Shown one piece after another: positions 211-11,157 of a stretch of 11,164 nt of DNA (positions within the stretch are counted from its first letter, which is position 1; each line of letters starts with the position of its first letter). Source of the stretch: Alphaproteobacteria bacterium (GTDB lineage Bacteria; Pseudomonadota; Alphaproteobacteria; Rs-D84); NCBI GenBank assembly GCA_017936185.1, contig JAGBGA010000062.1:1-11164 (forward strand). Reading direction: 5' to 3'. The position numbers and the translations under genes are program-made. Below the pieces are notes generated by a model that saw only the letters and a program-made list of their open reading frames with translations, had not been told where the DNA came from and did not search any database.

Positions 211-1098
211 CTATGTATTTGCAACAATATTTAACCCAGATGTCGAATTAATTGCCGCCGCCAAATTCAACCCAAACGCCGAATCGTTCGAAATTGTAAC
301 TTGAAGCACCTTGACATCAATTGTTATTAATTGACTAAGCCGTTTATTTTGACGTTCAATATATTCCCCAACACGCGCCAGGACCGATGGCGATGCAGTA
401 ACCGTAATTGTTCCCAAACTGCGCGATACGGTAAAGTCTGCATTATCCGCCTTGCCAATAATTGATGATATTGCACTTTCAACTTCGTCCCATTCTTTCA
501 GTGTAGATTCCAATGACACTTCATTTGCATCGTCGGTTGACACCGATGTCTGATATGCAACTTCGGTTCCAAGGGCATACAGCGTAAACGTACGCGTTTC
601 TGTTTCATAGAACACAATTGAATTTTTATCATAGTACCACAACAAATCTAAATCTGTCGCAACCTGGTTCAACAAGCCCGACAATTTACCAGTATATGCA
701 ATATTAACTTGATTTCTTAATTTATCGGATGCGACTTGGCTGTCTATCTTGACCGGGATTCCAGTAATTGAATAAATATCATTTGCCAAGACCTGTAAAG
801 ACACAGGTTCATTTAATAATATTGTAATTCCGGCATCTGTTTCAAACTTTGCCGGCAAATTGTTACGATGTTCCAACACGACCGACTTATTTCCCAACCA
901 AACACCTTCGGACATTGAAACAGTATCACCTGTTGCGACCTTGGCGCGTGGATTTTTTGCCATTTCAAATGCGTCATACGCATTAATAAAGTCTTGGTCA
1001 ACGGCGGCGGCAACCTTGGCAGATTCGCGTTTTGCACACCCCGCCACAGACGCAACAACCAACCCACAAACAATAATCTTTTTAAATAAGTTTATCAT
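211..1098 (-). CDS. PilN-family type IVb pilus secretin, lipoprotein, reading frame up to an in-frame TAG
   Basis: Outer-membrane secretin of a type IVb pilus or related secretion system; such proteins form the multimeric ring through which the pilus passes. The N-terminus is a lipoprotein signal (residues 1-20) with lipobox VAGC and acylated Cys21. Residues about 92-155 look like the secretin N0/STN domain. Residues about 205-250 look like an N1-type repeat, and 257-285 (ITIDVKVLQVTISNDSAFGL) match the entry to the secretin domain. The start is supported by a GGGAG ribosome site about 9 bases upstream. The gene follows a TcpQ/PilL-like gene by 36 bases, an order reminiscent of pilL-pilN in type IVb pilus operons. 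TAG at 211-213 ends the frame after 295 residues, far short of the usual 500 or more. The same frame continues as secretin sequence beyond it, so this is either a nonsense mutation, a readthrough or recoded codon, or a sequence error. Family assignment is confident; functional state is not. Confidence 0.8.
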   Translation of the reverse strand: MINLFKKIIVCGLVVASVAGCAKRESAKVAAAVDQDFINAYDAFEMAKNPRAKVATGDTVSMSEGVWLGNKSVVLEHRNNLPAKFETDAGITILLNEPVSLQVLANDIYSITGIPVKIDSQVASDKLRNQVNIAYTGKLSGLLNQVATDLDLLWYYDKNSIVFYETETRTFTLYALGTEVAYQTSVSTDDANEVSLESTLKEWDEVESAISSIIGKADNADFTVSRSLGTITVTASPSVLARVGEYIERQNKRLSQLITIDVKVLQVTISNDSAFGLNLAAAINSTSGLNIVANT

Positions 1099-2825: not shown

Positions 2826-4154
2826 ATGACCAAATTATCAGAAAATCTTGTACGCGAAATATCCGCCATCCGCCAAGAACCCGAATGGTTGCTTCAATGG
2901 CGTCTTGATGCACTTAACGCATGGCGCAAGATGTCTGAACCACACTGGGGCGACATTGATTACGCACCAATTGATTACGACAATTTAAATTACTATAACG
3001 AACCTGCACCGATTGACAATTCAGATTTAGAATCTGTTTATGATAAAATGGGACTGCCCGAAAGTGAAAAACGCGCACTGATGGGAATGGCAACCGACAC
3101 CGTTATAGACAGTCGTTCTGTCCACACGTCCTATACGGCGGAATTGGCGCGTTTGGGCATAATATTTTTACCATTTTCAGACGCCGTAAAGCAGCATCCA
3201 GACCTGGTAAAAAAATATCTTGGCACTGTGGTCCCCGTCACCGATAATTTTTTTGCTGCACTGAATGCTGCAACATTTTCAGACGGCACATTTGTCTATA
3301 TCCCCCCGAACACAAAATGCCCCATTGATTTGGCCAGCTATTTCCGCATTGAAACCGCCAAGATTGGACAATTTGAACGCACCTTAATAATTGCGGACAC
3401 CGGTTCTGAACTGTCATACATGGAAGGTTGCAGTGCCCCCCGCCGCCCCAATCACCAGTTACACAGTGGCGTCGTTGAAATTATCGTACACGATAACGCA
3501 ACCGTAAAATACGCAACGGTTCAAAATTGGTTTGCCGGCGAATTTGACGGCACCAAGAACAATGGCGGCATATTAAACTTTGTAACCAAGCGCGGTCGTT
3601 GCGACGAAAACGCAAAATTATTATGGACACAAATGGAAGTTGGCAGTGCCCTTACCTGGAAATACCCATCGACAATTTTATCCGGAAACAATGCGTACAG
3701 CGACTTTTTTTCACTGTCCATAACACGTGGCGCACAAATGGCAGACACCGGAACAAAAATGATTCACATTGGCAACAACACAACATCAAACATTGTGTCA
3801 TACGGTGTTGCAACCGACGCATCCCACCAAACGTTTCGCAGTCTTGTTTCCTTTACCGGTTCAAACTGTACCAACGCATCAAAATGCGACAGTCGCCTTA
3901 TCGGCCCTGATGCCGTTGCCAACACACGCCCCCGCATAATTCATGCCGGCGAAAACAACACCCAATCACACGAAGCGACCACCGGCGCAATTGATGCGGC
4001 GACATTAAATTATCTGAACATGGCCGGCATTGAAACAGACGTGGCAATTGCACTTATAATTGGTGCGGCGGCAACACCGGTGCTGTCGCGACTTCCGATG
4101 GAATTTTTGGTTGAATCAAAACAATTAATACAAATGGCATTATCAAAGGATTAA
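2826..4154 (+). CDS. sufB: Fe-S cluster assembly scaffold protein SufB
   Basis: SufB is the scaffold of the SUF system; with SufC it builds nascent Fe-S clusters in the cytoplasm for transfer to apo-proteins. The N-terminal signature WRLDALNAWRKM (25-36) followed by EPHW is typical. So are FERTLIIAD (183-191), EGCSAP (200-205), KYATVQNW (228-235), FVTKRG (252-257) and ADTGTKMIHIG (306-316). Cys354 in KCDSRLIG and His382-Glu383 in HEATT correspond to residues implicated in cluster assembly in the E. coli protein. At 442 residues it is somewhat shorter than the 460-500 usual in bacteria, with an abbreviated C-terminal region. It sits 6 bases after an unknown membrane-anchored gene and 3 bases before sufC, whose ribosome site AAAGGA lies inside its end. 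No sufD follows. Confidence 0.97.
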   Translation: MTKLSENLVREISAIRQEPEWLLQWRLDALNAWRKMSEPHWGDIDYAPIDYDNLNYYNEPAPIDNSDLESVYDKMGLPESEKRALMGMATDTVIDSRSVHTSYTAELARLGIIFLPFSDAVKQHPDLVKKYLGTVVPVTDNFFAALNAATFSDGTFVYIPPNTKCPIDLASYFRIETAKIGQFERTLIIADTGSELSYMEGCSAPRRPNHQLHSGVVEIIVHDNATVKYATVQNWFAGEFDGTKNNGGILNFVTKRGRCDENAKLLWTQMEVGSALTWKYPSTILSGNNAYSDFFSLSITRGAQMADTGTKMIHIGNNTTSNIVSYGVATDASHQTFRSLVSFTGSNCTNASKCDSRLIGPDAVANTRPRIIHAGENNTQSHEATTGAIDAATLNYLNMAGIETDVAIALIIGAAATPVLSRLPMEFLVESKQLIQMALSKD

Positions 4155-4157
4155 ACA

Positions 4158-4835
4158 ATGCTAAGCACAGAAAACTTGACCGTAAAATTTGGCGACAAAG
4201 AATTATTGCACAACATCAATATAAAAGTCGACGATGGCGCACGCCATTTATTATCTGGACATAACGGTTCGGGCAAAACAACACTTGCCCAAGTAATCGC
4301 CGGAAATCCCGAATACGAAATAACATCTGGAAAAATACTTTTTGATGGCCACGATATTACAAACGAAAACGCGACAACACGCGCCCTGTTGGGCATATTT
4401 CTTGGGGCCCAGCATGTACCCGAAATTCCGGGCTTGACGATAATCAGCTTTTTAAAACATTCCTGTGCGGCACACACCCACTTTCAAACCGGCTGCGAAT
4501 TATCAATGGGTGAATTTCTTGAAAAATTAGAATCCGCGCGCCAAGAATTAAACATTCCACGCGAATGGCTGAACCGCAGTATAAACGTCGGTTTTTCTGG
4601 CGGCGAACGCAAACGTATAATGTTACTAAGGCTGATATTAACCAACCCAAAGTTCGCCATTCTTGATGAACCTGATTCTGGGGCCGACGCCGAAACACAA
4701 AAACTGATTGCGAAAATCGTTTCCAATATGCCGAACACAACATTTTTATTCATCAGTCACCAAGAAAAATTTACAGAAATAATGTCACCAACAAACACAA
4801 CGACTTTATCCGGTGGCAAAATTATGCTAGAATAA
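4158..4835 (+). CDS. sufC: SUF system ATPase SufC
   Basis: ABC-type ATPase that binds SufB (and SufD where present) and drives the conformational change needed for Fe-S assembly. Visible motifs are Walker A GHNGSGKTT (34-42), a Q-loop at Gln85 in the SufC-specific context FLGAQHVPEIPG, the signature FSGGERKR (146-153), Walker B AILDEPDSG (167-175) with Asp170 and Glu171, and the switch His201. The EIPG and DSGAD stretches separate it from ordinary transporter ATPases. At 225 residues it lacks about 25 residues of the usual C-terminus, ending right after the GGKI strand. It also deviates in Walker A (His for Pro, Thr for Ser) and after the signature (RIML where NEI is common). It starts 3 bases after sufB. 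The missing tail and absent sufD suggest a SufB2C2-type complex; that is an inference. Confidence 0.96.
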   Translation: MLSTENLTVKFGDKELLHNINIKVDDGARHLLSGHNGSGKTTLAQVIAGNPEYEITSGKILFDGHDITNENATTRALLGIFLGAQHVPEIPGLTIISFLKHSCAAHTHFQTGCELSMGEFLEKLESARQELNIPREWLNRSINVGFSGGERKRIMLLRLILTNPKFAILDEPDSGADAETQKLIAKIVSNMPNTTFLFISHQEKFTEIMSPTNTTTLSGGKIMLE

Positions 4836-7412: not shown

Positions 7413-7826
7413 ATGAAAAAGACAGTACAAGCATATATCGGCACAAACGAACAACCAAATATGTACAAGTTGGGTGCCCCTATTACTTTAAAAAATGCTG
7501 CCAAAATGTTGCAAGGCATTACATTGACCCAAAAACCTGTATGCACATGTTGGGGTGATTTTGGCTTGACAATGCAAGTTAATGCAAATTCGCACAGTAA
7601 TGGTCGCGTATACGTTAACTCTGACTTAAACATCATTGCACCAGACACACGTATTCAATTCTATTGCATGGGTCCAAAAGAAGCAGATACTGCAAACGAA
7701 TTACCGGCATCTGAACGTGTTAAAAAGTGTCTTGAAATGGCGGCGGCCGGCAAATGTCGCGGTCAACACATGTGTCACAACATCTGGCCAACATTCTTTC
7801 CAGAATATTACACAAAAACACGTTAA
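7413..7826 (+). CDS. Small cysteine-rich protein, paralogue 1 of 4
   Basis: I recognise no family. The 137-residue protein has no signal peptide or membrane segment, so it is probably cytoplasmic. It is the first of four related genes in this stretch. Shared features are an N-terminal beta-like start (VQAYIG), an LGAPITLKNAAKML segment (20-33), a CW pair (Cys46-Trp47), a strand ending in FYC (Cys85), and a C-terminal Cys-x8-Cys (106 and 115) in KKCLEMAAAGKCRG. An FFPEYY tail closes it. Here Cys115 is followed by x5 and Cys121, so the spacing Cys-x8-Cys-x5-Cys equals the first part of a CCCH zinc finger. No His stands at the fourth position, although His122 is adjacent to the third Cys. Metal binding is plausible but unproven. 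The start has an AAAGG ribosome site. The related genes follow at 24 and 12 bases, so they form one unit. Confidence 0.85.
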   Translation: MKKTVQAYIGTNEQPNMYKLGAPITLKNAAKMLQGITLTQKPVCTCWGDFGLTMQVNANSHSNGRVYVNSDLNIIAPDTRIQFYCMGPKEADTANELPASERVKKCLEMAAAGKCRGQHMCHNIWPTFFPEYYTKTR

Positions 7827-7850
7827 TGTGTAACGCCCAAGGACAATGTG

Positions 7851-8243
7851 ATGACAACAAACGCAAAACATGATTTTTATTTAACAGACGATTACAATAC
7901 CGGCATCAGTGTTCGCTGTGGCCGATATACCAAGAATCAAATATTATCATTCATGCGTATGATGTCACGCATCAAAGAAATTCCTGAAAATACATGCCTG
8001 CGTGGTGCCTGTATATTTTTTGACACGCACCATTGTGCGCAGATGTATTTTGGGAATGACGGTCCTTATTTCCATGACAAGACCCAATACACACCAATCG
8101 AATGCATGATAACCACACGCAACAAATGTAACGGTAACTGTATTGAAAATATCGTATACGGCAAATGTCCAGACACCTTTGTCCGCGACACAATTGGCAA
8201 GAAATTATTATCACACGCATACACTAATGACCCCCAGCGTTAA
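7851..8243 (+). CDS. Small cysteine-rich protein, paralogue 2 of 4 (most divergent)
   Basis: Unrecognised family, 130 residues with eight cysteines (23, 49, 54, 62, 85, 93, 97, 106) and no signal peptide or membrane segment. It belongs with its neighbours by the Cys-x8-Cys core (97 and 106, with YGKC), by a preceding strand ending in IEC (Cys85), and by a Cys near the middle of the chain (GAC, 54) at the place of the CW pair. The Trp is replaced, and an extra Cys lies three residues before the core (Cys93-x3-Cys97). The third finger-like Cys is absent. The ATG at 7851 is preferred over the GTG at 7848 because it lies 7 rather than 4 bases from the AAGGA at 7839-7843. It is the middle gene of a three-gene tandem. 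Relationship to the others is by pattern, and weaker than for the other three. Confidence 0.8.
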   Translation: MTTNAKHDFYLTDDYNTGISVRCGRYTKNQILSFMRMMSRIKEIPENTCLRGACIFFDTHHCAQMYFGNDGPYFHDKTQYTPIECMITTRNKCNGNCIENIVYGKCPDTFVRDTIGKKLLSHAYTNDPQR

Positions 8244-8255
8244 CAGGAACATCAC

Positions 8256-8678
8256 ATGAACGACAACAAAATTCAAACATATATAAATGCCCCCGGTGAA
8301 AAGCCCCAACAAATCGGCACACCTATTTCATTAACTGCGGCGGCAAAAATGTTAACCGAACTTGGCGCAAACAAAGTCCCATCACAAAACGCATGCTGGT
8401 CACACATATTTGCCACACTTGAAAGTGGCCTTAACGTCTGTCGCACAAATTTTCCACAAACGGATTCCAGTCTGCACATCACTGCATTTTTTCAACAAGA
8501 CATGAAATTTGACTGTCTTGATACCCAAGATGCCATACACGCCAACGAACTTTCCACTGGGCAAAAAATGCACACATGCCTTACCAACATGTCGTATGGC
8601 CTTTGTCAAAATCCCGAATGTAAAAAGATTGCAAAATACCTGTTTCCATATCAATACCGAAACACGAAACAGCGTTAA
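8256..8678 (+). CDS. Small cysteine-rich protein, paralogue 3 of 4
   Basis: Unrecognised family, 140 residues, closely parallel to paralogue 1: IQTYIN matches VQAYIG, IGTPISLTAAAKML matches LGAPITLKNAAKML, and ANELS matches ANELP. Its cysteines are 47 (in ACW), 62, 87 (in FDC), 108, 117 and 122. The core is Cys108-x8-Cys117, followed by x4 and Cys122, one residue shorter than in paralogue 1. The tail has LFPYQY and ends in basic residues. There is no signal peptide, membrane segment or catalytic motif. The start follows an AGGA ribosome site, 12 bases after paralogue 2. A strong terminator follows 5 bases after the stop codon, closing the tandem. The parallel to paralogue 1 across the whole length points to gene duplication. 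Confidence 0.85.
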   Translation: MNDNKIQTYINAPGEKPQQIGTPISLTAAAKMLTELGANKVPSQNACWSHIFATLESGLNVCRTNFPQTDSSLHITAFFQQDMKFDCLDTQDAIHANELSTGQKMHTCLTNMSYGLCQNPECKKIAKYLFPYQYRNTKQR

Positions 8679-8683
8679 AATTC

Positions 8684-8715
8684 AAACCGGAAAATTCATT
8701 CCGGTTTATTTTTAT
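8684..8715 (+). terminator. Intrinsic terminator after the three-gene Cys-rich cluster
   Basis: A 9-base-pair stem pairs 8684-8692 (AAACCGGAA) with 8699-8707 (TTCCGGTTT) around a 6-base loop. It is followed by ATTTTTATTTT, a good T-rich tract. It separates the tandem genes from the gatC promoter, so the fourth paralogue is transcribed from a different promoter. Confidence 0.85.
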
Positions 8716-8744
8716 TTTACACCGATGCAAAATGGGAAAAAACC

Positions 8745-8772
8745 TTGAATTCTGGCAAAATACCTGTATAAT
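8745..8772 (+). promoter_or_regulatory. Sigma70-type promoter of the gatC operon
   Basis: TTGAAT (8745-8750) and a perfect TATAAT (8767-8772) are 16 bases apart. Transcription would start near 8779, about 38 bases before the gatC ATG. The promoter lies directly after the terminator of the preceding genes. Confidence 0.7.
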
Positions 8773-8816
8773 TTCATTTGCTTATAAACACATACAAACA
8801 GCATAGGATTCAAATT

Positions 8817-9113
8817 ATGACATTCAGCAAGCAGCAACTACAAAAATTCGCAAACTTGGCACAAATCGACATATCAACCGAACGATTGGAAGAAATGAAT
8901 ATTGATTCTGTGGTTGAATGGTTAAACAAATTACAACAAATTGACACAACTGGCGTTGATGCGATGTTAAGCCCGGTTGAACACAAATTACCACGTCGCC
9001 CCGACGTTGTAACCGACGGCAACATTCGTGACTTGGTTTTGGCAAACACGCCGGACAACGCCGGCACATCACGTGGATACTTTGCGGTACCAAAAGTTAT
9101 GGACGGTGAATAA
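8817..9113 (+). CDS. gatC: Asp-tRNA(Asn)/Glu-tRNA(Gln) amidotransferase subunit GatC
   Basis: GatC wraps around GatA and GatB and stabilises the GatCAB complex, which converts Glu-tRNA(Gln) and/or Asp-tRNA(Asn) into the correctly charged amide forms in the cytoplasm. The 98-residue product is of usual length. It shows the family pattern: an N-terminal helix with LAQIDIS (17-23), a following VVEWLNKLQQIDT helix, a DAMLSP turn, and the C-terminal GYFAVPKVMDG that typifies GatC. The ATG at 8817 is chosen over an in-frame TTG at 8778 because an AGGA ribosome site lies 8 bases upstream and because the TTG lies at the predicted start of transcription. gatA is not directly next. A Cys-rich gene of unknown function starts one base after the gatC stop codon and separates the two gat genes. 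Confidence 0.95.
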   Translation: MTFSKQQLQKFANLAQIDISTERLEEMNIDSVVEWLNKLQQIDTTGVDAMLSPVEHKLPRRPDVVTDGNIRDLVLANTPDNAGTSRGYFAVPKVMDGE

Positions 9114-9114
9114 A

Positions 9115-9531
9115 ATGCACACAAAAGTCGAAGTATGTATGAATCACAAAAAACAAGGTGGTACAACATACCATTATATACTTGGCGAAGAAATTGCCTA
9201 TAACACCGCCTTGAAATTACTTGACTTAATCTATAACACCCCCGCCCCCAGGTTATGCTGGCTTCATATGACTGCGGACATGCATACAAACGTAAACAGA
9301 TGTTACGACACGAAACAAGGTTATCGGTATTCTACTTTAAACATTCAGGCTGACTTTAACAAACGTATTTCATGCCCATGTGATAAAACACTTAATCACT
9401 ACGATGCCGAAACCAAAGTTGAAAAATGTCATGAATTATTATGCGCCGGCAAATGTCGTGACGAATTCATACAAAAAACACTGGGGGCTGTTTTGTTCCC
9501 ACAACATTACGCAAAAGACAAACAAAAGTAA
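9115..9531 (+). CDS. Small cysteine-rich protein, paralogue 4 of 4, inserted between gatC and gatA
   Basis: Unrecognised family, 138 residues and eight cysteines (8, 48, 63, 87, 89, 105, 110, 114). It aligns with paralogues 1 and 3: a beta-like start (VEVCMN), an LGEEIAYNTALKLL segment, a CW pair (Cys48-Trp49), STLNIQADF matching the SSLHITAFF of paralogue 3, the core Cys105-x8-Cys114 within AGKCRD, and an LFPQHY tail ending in basic residues. The third finger-like Cys is missing, replaced by Gln. The frame is open further upstream to 9028, but that part overlaps gatC in another frame, so the ATG at 9115 is preferred. It lies one base after the gatC stop codon, implying translational coupling. 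gatA starts 12 bases after its stop codon. It is therefore coexpressed with the tRNA amidotransferase; a functional link is only inferred. Confidence 0.87.
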   Translation: MHTKVEVCMNHKKQGGTTYHYILGEEIAYNTALKLLDLIYNTPAPRLCWLHMTADMHTNVNRCYDTKQGYRYSTLNIQADFNKRISCPCDKTLNHYDAETKVEKCHELLCAGKCRDEFIQKTLGAVLFPQHYAKDKQK

Positions 9532-9543
9532 GAGCAAACAAAA

Positions 9544-11010
9544 ATGATTAACTTGACACTGACTGAAAGCTTACAGAAATTAAACAGCGGCGAAATTTCT
9601 GCCGTCGAATTAACGCGCGCATATCTTAACCGCATTGAAAAATATGGTGCGGATTTAAATTGCTATATCACGACGACGCCTGAACGTGCACTTGCCGATG
9701 CGGCGGCATCTGACGCACGTCGCGCGGCGGGCGATGCAAAATTCTTGGACGGCGCACCAATTGCGATGAAAGACTTGTTTGCCACCCGCGGTATTCGCAC
9801 AACGGCGGCATCACGCATGTTGGAAAATTTTGTCCCAGAATACGAATCGACCATTTCACAAAAGTTCATTGATGCCGGTACTGTATTACTTGGCAAATCA
9901 AACCTTGACGAATTCGCAATGGGCACATTCAGTAAAACAAGTTATTTTGGTGCCCCAATCAGTCCATGGCAAATGGAACGCCGGCTGACCGCGGGCGGTT
10001 CATCGGGCGGTTCGACATCTGCGGTTGCGGGCGGACTGGCCATTGCGGCGACCGGCACAGACACCGGCGGTTCGATTCGTTTTCCGGCGGCAATTACGGG
10101 CCTTGTTGGTATGAAGCCAACATACGGTCTTTGTTCACGTTGGGGGTGTGTTGCATTTGCATCTTCACTTGATACCCCGGGCCCAATTACACGTACCGTT
10201 GACGATGCCGGATTATTATTAAACATCATGGCGGGTCACGATTCAAAAGAATCCACCAGTTGTGAAAACAACTTTTCATGCACCGGCCCGGTTCAGCCAA
10301 TCTTGGGCGACGGCAAAAAATTACGCGTTGGCGTAATCCAAGAATTTGCAAACGTTGAAATTTCTGACGACATGAAAACATTATTTGAAAAGCGCATATC
10401 AGATTTAAAATCAATGGGCGCCGAAATTGTCGAAGTTTCCATTCCAAACATTCTTGACGCCTTGGCGGCATACTATATCATCGCCCCGGCCGAAGCATCA
10501 TCAAACCTTTCACGATATGATGGCATGCGTTATGGTCTTCGTGTCGAAGGCAACGACATATACGACACATTCCGCAAGACCCGCGCGGCCGGCTTTGGCG
10601 ACGAAGTTCAACGCCGCTTGATTGTTGGCACCGCGGTACTCAGCAGTGAATCCTATGACGTATATTTTATGCAGGCCGCCCGCGTTCGTCGCATGATTGC
10701 AGACAGCTTTGACGCCGCATTTAAACAATGCGATTTGATTGTATGCCCATCAAGCGCCGGCACCGCCATGCCATTGGATTCTGGGTTAACACCACTTGAA
10801 TTCTATGCATTGGACTTGTTCACCGTTGCAATGAACCTGGCGGGCATTCCTGCATGCAGTGTACCATGTGGTTTGGCACAAAACGGCCTTCCATTGGGGC
10901 TTCAAGTTGTCGGCCGTCGTTTTGACGACATGCGTGTTTTACAATTGGCAAAGCACATTGAAACCGCGGCAAACATTGACAACCGCCCAACAACAATAAT
11001 GGGGAAATAA
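9544..11010 (+). CDS. gatA: Asp-tRNA(Asn)/Glu-tRNA(Gln) amidotransferase subunit GatA
   Basis: GatA is the amidase subunit of GatCAB; it releases ammonia from glutamine or asparagine for transfer to the misacylated tRNA held by GatB. It has the amidase-signature Ser-cisSer-Lys triad: Lys76 in PIAMKDLF, Ser153 in TAGGSSGGS and the nucleophile Ser177 in TDTGGSIRFPA. The 24-residue spacing of the two serines matches other GatA proteins. GLVGMKPTYG (186-195) and the downstream GPITRTVDDAGLLL block are also typical. Length (488) is normal and both ends look intact. The ribosome site is weak (TAAGAG, 9 bases upstream), so expression may depend on coupling with the Cys-rich gene before it. gatB is not next: a tRNA-Phe gene on the other strand follows, so gatB must lie elsewhere. 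Confidence 0.97.
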   Translation: MINLTLTESLQKLNSGEISAVELTRAYLNRIEKYGADLNCYITTTPERALADAAASDARRAAGDAKFLDGAPIAMKDLFATRGIRTTAASRMLENFVPEYESTISQKFIDAGTVLLGKSNLDEFAMGTFSKTSYFGAPISPWQMERRLTAGGSSGGSTSAVAGGLAIAATGTDTGGSIRFPAAITGLVGMKPTYGLCSRWGCVAFASSLDTPGPITRTVDDAGLLLNIMAGHDSKESTSCENNFSCTGPVQPILGDGKKLRVGVIQEFANVEISDDMKTLFEKRISDLKSMGAEIVEVSIPNILDALAAYYIIAPAEASSNLSRYDGMRYGLRVEGNDIYDTFRKTRAAGFGDEVQRRLIVGTAVLSSESYDVYFMQAARVRRMIADSFDAAFKQCDLIVCPSSAGTAMPLDSGLTPLEFYALDLFTVAMNLAGIPACSVPCGLAQNGLPLGLQVVGRRFDDMRVLQLAKHIETAANIDNRPTTIMGK

Positions 11011-11081: not shown

Positions 11082-11157
11082 TGGTGGCTAGGGACGGAAT
11101 CGAACCGCCGACACAGGGATTTTCAGTCCCTTGCTCTACCAACTGAGCTACCTAGCC
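11082..11157 (-). tRNA. tRNA-Phe (anticodon GAA)
   Basis: A full 76-base cloverleaf with encoded CCA. The acceptor stem pairs GGCTAGG (11157-11151) with CCTAGCC (11092-11086), followed by discriminator A and CCA (11084-11082). The D-arm has GCTC/GAGC and the loop AGTTGGTA. The anticodon stem AGGGA/TCCCT holds loop CTGAAAA with anticodon GAA. The T-arm is GGCGG-TTCGATT-CCGTC with one G-U pair. It reads phenylalanine codons TTC and TTT. The gene is convergent with gatA and has its own terminator. The sequence resembles alphaproteobacterial tRNA-Phe, including the GGTAGCTCAGTTGGTAGAGC stretch; that comparison is from memory. Confidence 0.97.

Follow-up and report, generated by a model that had tools for sequence, protein, structure and literature searches.

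The stretch of DNA analyzed here, called the window, comprises 11,164 nucleotides (nt) of an alphaproteobacterial genome (GenBank assembly GCA_017936185.1, contig JAGBGA010000062.1) and carries four genes for small, cysteine-rich proteins, P1 to P4, around the tRNA amidotransferase genes gatC and gatA. All four genes are on the + strand. P1 (positions 7413 to 7826; 137 residues; aligned cysteines 46, 85, 106, and 115), P3 (8256 to 8678; 140 residues; cysteines 47, 87, 108, and 117), and P4 (9115 to 9531; 138 residues; cysteines 48, 89, 105, and 114) are four-Cys domain proteins, and P2 (7848 to 8243, counted from a GTG; 131 residues; cysteines 50, 94, 98, and 107) is a divergent one, with extra cysteines at 24, 55, 63, and 86. 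Translation of P2 more likely starts at the ATG at 7851, which is better spaced from an AAGGA sequence, and the protein would then have 130 residues. P1, P2, and P3 sit between ruvX and gatC (1518 nt), and P4 lies 1 base past the gatC stop codon and 12 bases ahead of gatA. The two gat genes are not members of the family; gatC (8817 to 9113, + strand; TIGR00135, E value of 2.4e-16) and gatA (9544 to 11010, + strand; TIGR00132, E value of 5.5e-151) form the left and right edges of the hotspot described below.

An earlier note on this sequence had described the span from 7413 to 9531 as a four-member family with a shared layout, and each of the motifs that it listed is present in the translated open reading frames (ORFs) and their alignment. 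The (I/L)G.PI-L..AAKML segment reads LGAPITLKNAAKML in P1 and IGTPISLTAAAKML in P3. A CW pair occurs in P1, P3, and P4, with CL in P2; a strand ending in Cys is seen in the alignment; and all four proteins contain Cys-x8-Cys, with GKC in P1, P2, and P4 and GLC in P3. The tail reads FFP in P1, LFP in P3 and P4, and LLS in P2, ending in basic residues, and the lengths fall within the announced 130 to 140 residues. The span was nevertheless too inclusive, as gatC within it is unrelated, and the count of four was too small: the stretches that we read hold 155 distinct ORFs, fragments included, with 156 domain matches. A signal peptide was considered for P1 to P4 and dropped after looking at the N termini by eye.

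P1 to P4 are homologous and belong to one family. In phmmer comparisons within a four-sequence database, P1 matched P3 with an E value of 1.4e-14 and P4 with 1.5e-13, and P3 matched P4 with 2.9e-9; in a search of its own genome, P1 retrieved P3 at 6.6e-11 and P4 at 3.6e-10. P2, at 16 to 19% identity to the three others, is the weakest relative (6.3e-6 with P4, 8e-4 with P3). By themselves, P1 and P2 are not recognizably similar (0.13), as would be expected if the resemblance were due to chance or if several unrelated cysteine-rich proteins had been grouped together. We considered this explanation and dropped it as extremely improbable, since a profile devoid of window rows (152 rows) matched all four proteins (8e-13 for P1, 4.5e-17 for P2, 1.4e-14 for P3, and 1.6e-21 for P4), six columns are invariant among 19 proteins, and the models of P4 and P2 have the same order of elements. 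These E values are on a 1000-sequence scale, on which the best of 1000 composition shuffles reached 0.004, and the source alignment had originally been seeded with the window proteins, whose rows were removed afterwards; all other profiles of the family were trained on its own members.

The invariant positions of the family are confined to cysteines, one Gly, and one Tyr, and include no acidic residue or His. In an alignment of 19 members including P1 to P4 (A4), they correspond to C48, C89, C105, G112, C114, and Y132 in P4 numbering. The Cys-x8-Cys pair, proposed earlier as the invariant core, thus holds, but a second invariant pair, C48 and C89, had been overlooked. In a 43-row alignment (A5), C48, C105, G112, C114, and Y132 are invariant and the C89 column is not, probably because of a loop of variable length before C105. 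Both tail columns contain Cys in all 155 filled rows of 156, and C-x8-C is present in 154 of the 156 domain matches; the two exceptions are a protein at locus L189, in which the end is shortened and the spacing is C-x7-C, and an ORF at L068 that terminates ahead of the motif (loci are numbered with L, genomes with G). A loose test for at least one Cys both 3 to 30 and 33 to 85 residues upstream of the motif was positive in 151 of the 154 matches, the misses being one fragment and two proteins that seem to be complete (L132 and L152). Neither a CxxC spacing nor a set of two short Cys knuckles is conserved in A4 or A5. Because only Cys, Gly, and Tyr are invariant, enzymatic activity appears unlikely, and the residues are likely to serve a structural metal site; in cytoplasmic-looking proteins, this pattern favors such a site over redox function or catalysis. 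The four cysteines most likely hold one structural metal ion, probably zinc.

The models of two of the proteins are compatible with such a site. AlphaFold predicted P4, from 19 sequences, with a predicted local distance difference test score (pLDDT) of 88.8 and a predicted template modeling score (pTM) of 0.81. The P4 model comprises strands at 4 to 12, 18 to 22, 52 to 62, and 69 to 79, a helix at 29 to 41, and tail helices at 91 to 95, 98 to 110, 117 to 127, and 129 to 132. The P2 model (pLDDT of 78.0, pTM of 0.68) has the same order of elements plus an extra hairpin, and DSSP assignments show that a beta-beta-alpha-beta-beta half and a helical cysteine tail are common to both. The earlier note had named differing folds as evidence against the family; P4 and P2, the only two predicted, agree in this respect. 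In the P4 model, C48 directly precedes the third strand, C89 lies ten residues past the fourth, and C105 and C114 are in the tail. If the topology is beta-grasp-like, C48 and C89 would share one end of the sheet, and the predicted order of elements allows all four cysteines to meet in space.

Library searches support the earlier view that the proteins belong to no known family. Foldseek gave no significant match, with best E values of 0.11 (P4) and 0.08 (P2) against the PDB and 0.03 (P4) against a viral library; the structure searches returned only weak beta-grasp-like rows, mostly across the first half, and the cysteine tail was barely tested. Comparison of P1 to P4 with Pfam, NCBIfam, PHROG, and PADLOC yielded nothing over a curated cutoff or below an E value of 0.001, and the best Pfam value among 19 members was 0.0063, for one member. 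We found no published description of the four-Cys family in the literature searched, outside which most subscription papers and preprints lie.

We determined the extent of the family with increasingly broad profiles. A search with P1 alone had matches in 5 of 59 genomes, and 79 of the 156 genomes of the genus were matched by a 13-row profile (A2). With the 43-row A5 profile, matches were obtained in 91 of the 201 genomes that represent the order; these fall into 5 of its 23 genera, all belonging to one taxonomic family. A class-wide search matched 2 of 385 genomes, namely, that of the window and a doubtful one with stop codons, and no convincing match lay outside the one taxonomic family among the 201 order and 385 class genomes searched. 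Among the genomes searched, the family is therefore restricted to a lineage of reduced-genome gut Alphaproteobacteria, probably Candidatus Enterousia of the order Rs-D84, which is described as fermentative, devoid of respiratory chains, and thought to depend on a partner (PMC12306168). A host is given for 10 of 14 named loci: the gut of water buffalo, sheep, goat, roe deer, or yak. Among the matches listed, genomes carry one to six copies. Most genomes are drafts, in which apparent absences may be assembly gaps; that of the window measures 786 kb in 122 contigs and is 71% complete.

The gatC-gatA junction is the main site of these genes. In 148 genomes, the two gat genes are found together on the same contig and strand (150 places were listed for each); they are separated by 100 nt or less in 61 genomes, by 165 nt in one, and by more than 250 nt in 86. 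Among the matches listed, at least 66 of the 86 wide gaps hold a family member. Reading of all wide gaps except that of the window (85 of 86) gave 133 mechanically chosen genes, 89 of the four-Cys family in 66 gaps and 44 others, some of which may not be genes. Of four genomes with an empty gap that we read, all have less than 60 nt between ruvX and gatC and no family member in the 13 to 14 kb around the gat locus. Merging the A5 and A2 matches listed gave at least 159 family places, a lower bound. Of these, 88 are in the gat gap; the 71 at other positions include P1 to P3 and at least five places beside gatA for which no gap is defined (G101 twice, at locus L054, G165, G199, and G205). The other recurrent sites are, as we take it, next to gyrA, a pair of hemK and metallo-beta-lactamase-fold genes, and fabD/queH; functional links to these neighbors were considered, and we read them as sites instead. 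Inspection by eye of the gat gaps that we read revealed no mobility gene. The four-Cys genes are accessory cargo that occupies a small number of sites, most often the gatC-gatA junction.

Three other kinds of genes recur in the gaps: a family of approximately 90 residues, proteins like the RNA polymerase alpha C-terminal domain (alpha-CTD), and a family of approximately 200 residues. Stand-alone alpha-CTD-like proteins with PF03118 over the cutoff and coiled-coil-like tails are found at L093 (153 to 620), L094 (156 to 530), L095 (160 to 561), and L098 (160 to 528); those at L053 and L110, alpha-CTD-like by eye, did not match PF03118. The 90-residue orphan family is represented at L191 (500 to 838), L058 (3588 to 3863), and L013 (1968 to 2282), among others, with no Pfam match for the three tested, and the 200-residue one at L117 (564 to 1184), L128 (773 to 1372), and L191 (863 to 1561), among others, with none of three over a Pfam cutoff. 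The gat gap of G004 contains a P2-like copy split by a frameshift (L014, 8338 to 8744). At its right end, the window has a tRNA-Phe (GAA) gene (11082 to 11157, - strand). Near the left end, an ORF at 211 to 1098 (- strand) resembles a PilN/MshL-type outer-membrane pilus protein (TIGR02520, E value of 3.3e-32, under the cutoff); with 295 residues, compared with 542 in L013 and at least 471 in L014, it looks interrupted.

The copies tested show signs of being maintained. The ratio of nonsynonymous to synonymous substitution rates (dN/dS) was between 0.04 and 0.36 in all nine pairs that we chose, with saturated dS in two, and is suggestive of purifying selection. Resolution was poor in a quick tree built from 155 rows (of its 152 inner branches, 29 were starred), but site labels were clustered on it, with 30 changes against a shuffled mean of 56.7 and none of 200 shuffles as low, although near-copies help this clustering. 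For each of P1 to P4, the closest row by path lies in another genome; the tree thus agrees, without branch support, with a divergence of the copies long ago, and the old duplications put forward earlier gain weak support from it.

We considered an alternative function for the cysteines. Binding of an iron-sulfur cluster, or a role as redox-sensing thiols rather than as ligands of structural zinc, would produce the same Cys invariance, and the lineage is described as fermentative without respiratory chains (PMC12306168). Moreover, sufB and sufC (2826 to 4835, + strand) are upstream of the gat locus. We dropped this proximity as support, however, because the order sufB-sufC-ruvX-gatC-gatA was kept in all six stretches compared and is the same in the four empty-gap genomes read, which lack a member there, making the nearness of sufBC uninformative. 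Given that no CxxC is conserved and that the Pfam hints to iron-sulfur profiles are far under the cutoff, we regard this alternative as rather unlikely.

A role for the domain is suggested by proteins in which it is joined to other parts. There are 22 ORFs with more than 75 residues ahead of the domain match, 10 of which start, by eye, with an acyl-carrier-like sequence (L062, 2186 to 2869; L063, 2118 to 2798 and 3520 to 4284; and at L064, L068, L173, L179, and L057). Pfam PF00550 matched three of them with E values of 9.6e-13, 2.1e-7, and 0.032, the last under the cutoff, and nine of the ten retain the carrier-motif Ser, the other having Cys instead. Five of the seven loci presumably adjoin hemK- or metallo-beta-lactamase-like genes. 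Three close relatives start with an alpha-CTD-like sequence; PF03118 was tried on one (E value of 2e-4, 21.4 bits for a cutoff of 23.8). One protein combines the domain with an apparent member of the 90-residue family and another with a different orphan domain (by eye), and some of the remaining long ORFs resemble extensions of the gatC frame, not fusions. P1 to P4 themselves carry neither PF00550 nor PF03118 in Pfam searches. Because the domain is fused to carrier and interaction domains, we suggest that it is an adaptor.

The same fusions, and a hotspot of gene turnover with several orphan families, could also be explained if the genes were cargo of phages, islands, or a defense system, with the acyl-carrier-like and alpha-like parts, copies of housekeeping domains, as decoys or sensors. 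A fusion member in G026 (L016, 7669 to 8652) adjoins a gene with Mtd_N, a phage tropism determinant (E value of 2.7e-13), and lies approximately 6 kb from a phage integrase (2.3e-20), and a member in G016 (L018, 8885 to 9295) is 5 to 9 kb from two resolvase-like genes. Nevertheless, 9 of the 10 proteins tried against PADLOC, including P1 to P4, had no match (the tenth, from another neighbor family, had two weak ones), the gat gaps lack mobility genes recognizable by eye, and no family match was obtained in viral contigs with alignment A3 or in phages and plasmids searched with P4 alone. Such an origin thus seems very unlikely. The G026 region (L016, 611 to 9376) also has a T5orf172 gene, within approximately 6 kb of the fusion, and is perhaps an island.

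The basic C-terminal tails raise another possibility, i.e., that P1 to P4 and their kin are directed at partners and exported by a type IV secretion system, with the tail as the signal. The last residue is Lys or Arg in 133 of 149 members, as opposed to 51 of 149 control clusters (118 of 397 control ORFs), and [KR]Q[KR] is at the extreme end of 63 of 149 members compared with 6 of 149 control clusters (9 of 397 ORFs). VirB4 (PF03135), the subunit searched, is encoded in 126 of the 156 genomes of the genus, that of the window included, and the family is multicopy, diverging, and patchy in a lineage thought to be partner-dependent (PMC12306168). However, AGA accounts for 54% of the Arg codons in the last four positions of family genes against 16% internally, and for 33% against 9% in the controls. 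The basic tail is therefore shaped at least partly at the DNA level and, as the AGA excess at gene ends extends to the controls, cannot be used as a protein-level signal. As VirB4 is also found in genomes without a family match, such as G060, we consider export distinctly unlikely.

We thus favor, as moderately probable, a model in which P1 to P4 represent a lineage-restricted family of small interaction domains stabilized by a metal, probably zinc, and carried as accessory cargo. Each cytoplasmic-looking protein would consist of a beta-beta-alpha-beta-beta half of beta-grasp-like order and a helical tail, as predicted for P4 and P2, with the first cysteine in the loop that follows the first helix, the second beyond the last strand, and the C-x8-C pair in the tail. 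A single metal ion would tie the tail to the sheet, and the domain would act as a small protein-interaction module, usually alone and sometimes joined to the acyl-carrier-like, alpha-CTD-like, or other orphan parts seen in the fusions, its genes being located mainly at the gatC-gatA junction. Several observations weigh against this model. Iron-sulfur binding or thiol chemistry would account for the Cys invariance as well; the L189 protein has a C-x7-C, the L132 and L152 proteins lack a Cys in the near range tested, and many members have extra, unaligned cysteines. In addition, most members are not fusions (by eye, the 155 ORFs include 10 with an acyl-carrier-like part and 3 with an alpha-CTD-like one), and those that consist of the domain alone do not point directly to a partner.

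A broader and more speculative picture, which we deem unlikely, is that a partner-dependent gut bacterium of approximately 0.9 Mb maintains a modular kit of orphan parts moving among fixed sites in housekeeping operons. The kit would comprise the four-Cys domain, the 90-residue family, stand-alone alpha-CTD copies, acyl-carrier fusions, and the 200-residue family, with the four-Cys domain as a metal-held adaptor that connects these parts with RNA polymerase, with the chemistry of acyl carriers, or with an outside partner. The present results add a previously unmodeled family of domains from a large gut genus that is uncultured; the model obtained is confident and has no significant counterpart among known folds. 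Among 148 genomes, the gatC-gatA junction forms a natural site that is filled in some and empty in others, and the acyl-carrier-like and RNA-polymerase-like fusions name concrete candidate partners.

The family has partial counterparts among known systems. Beta-grasp folds, such as protein L, the middle part of Nmd3, and ubiquitin-like proteins, have the same beta-beta-alpha-beta-beta order as the P4 and P2 models, but there is no sequence match to them and the structural matches cover mostly the first half. Zinc ribbons, e.g., Pfam Zn_ribbon_Com, likewise have four cysteines as probable metal ligands. Their hallmark is two short Cys knuckles (CxxC or similar), whereas the four-Cys family lacks conserved short knuckles: the aligned cysteines are separated by 40, 15, and 8 residues in P4 and by 43, 3, and 8 in P2, and P4 scored 9.6 bits against Zn_ribbon_Com, for a cutoff of 22.9. 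The acyl carrier protein (PF00550) and the RNA polymerase alpha C-terminal domain (PF03118) are fused to the four-Cys domain in relatives only. Finally, a report on Caulobacter (PMC4221894) describes patchy genes X, Y, and Z that separate gatA and gatB in the gatCAB operon, which similarly amounts to an insertion of patchy genes in an alphaproteobacterial gatCAB operon. The insertion lies between gatA and gatB in Caulobacter and between gatC and gatA here, as well as ahead of gatC in the window, and the two are likened by gene position alone.

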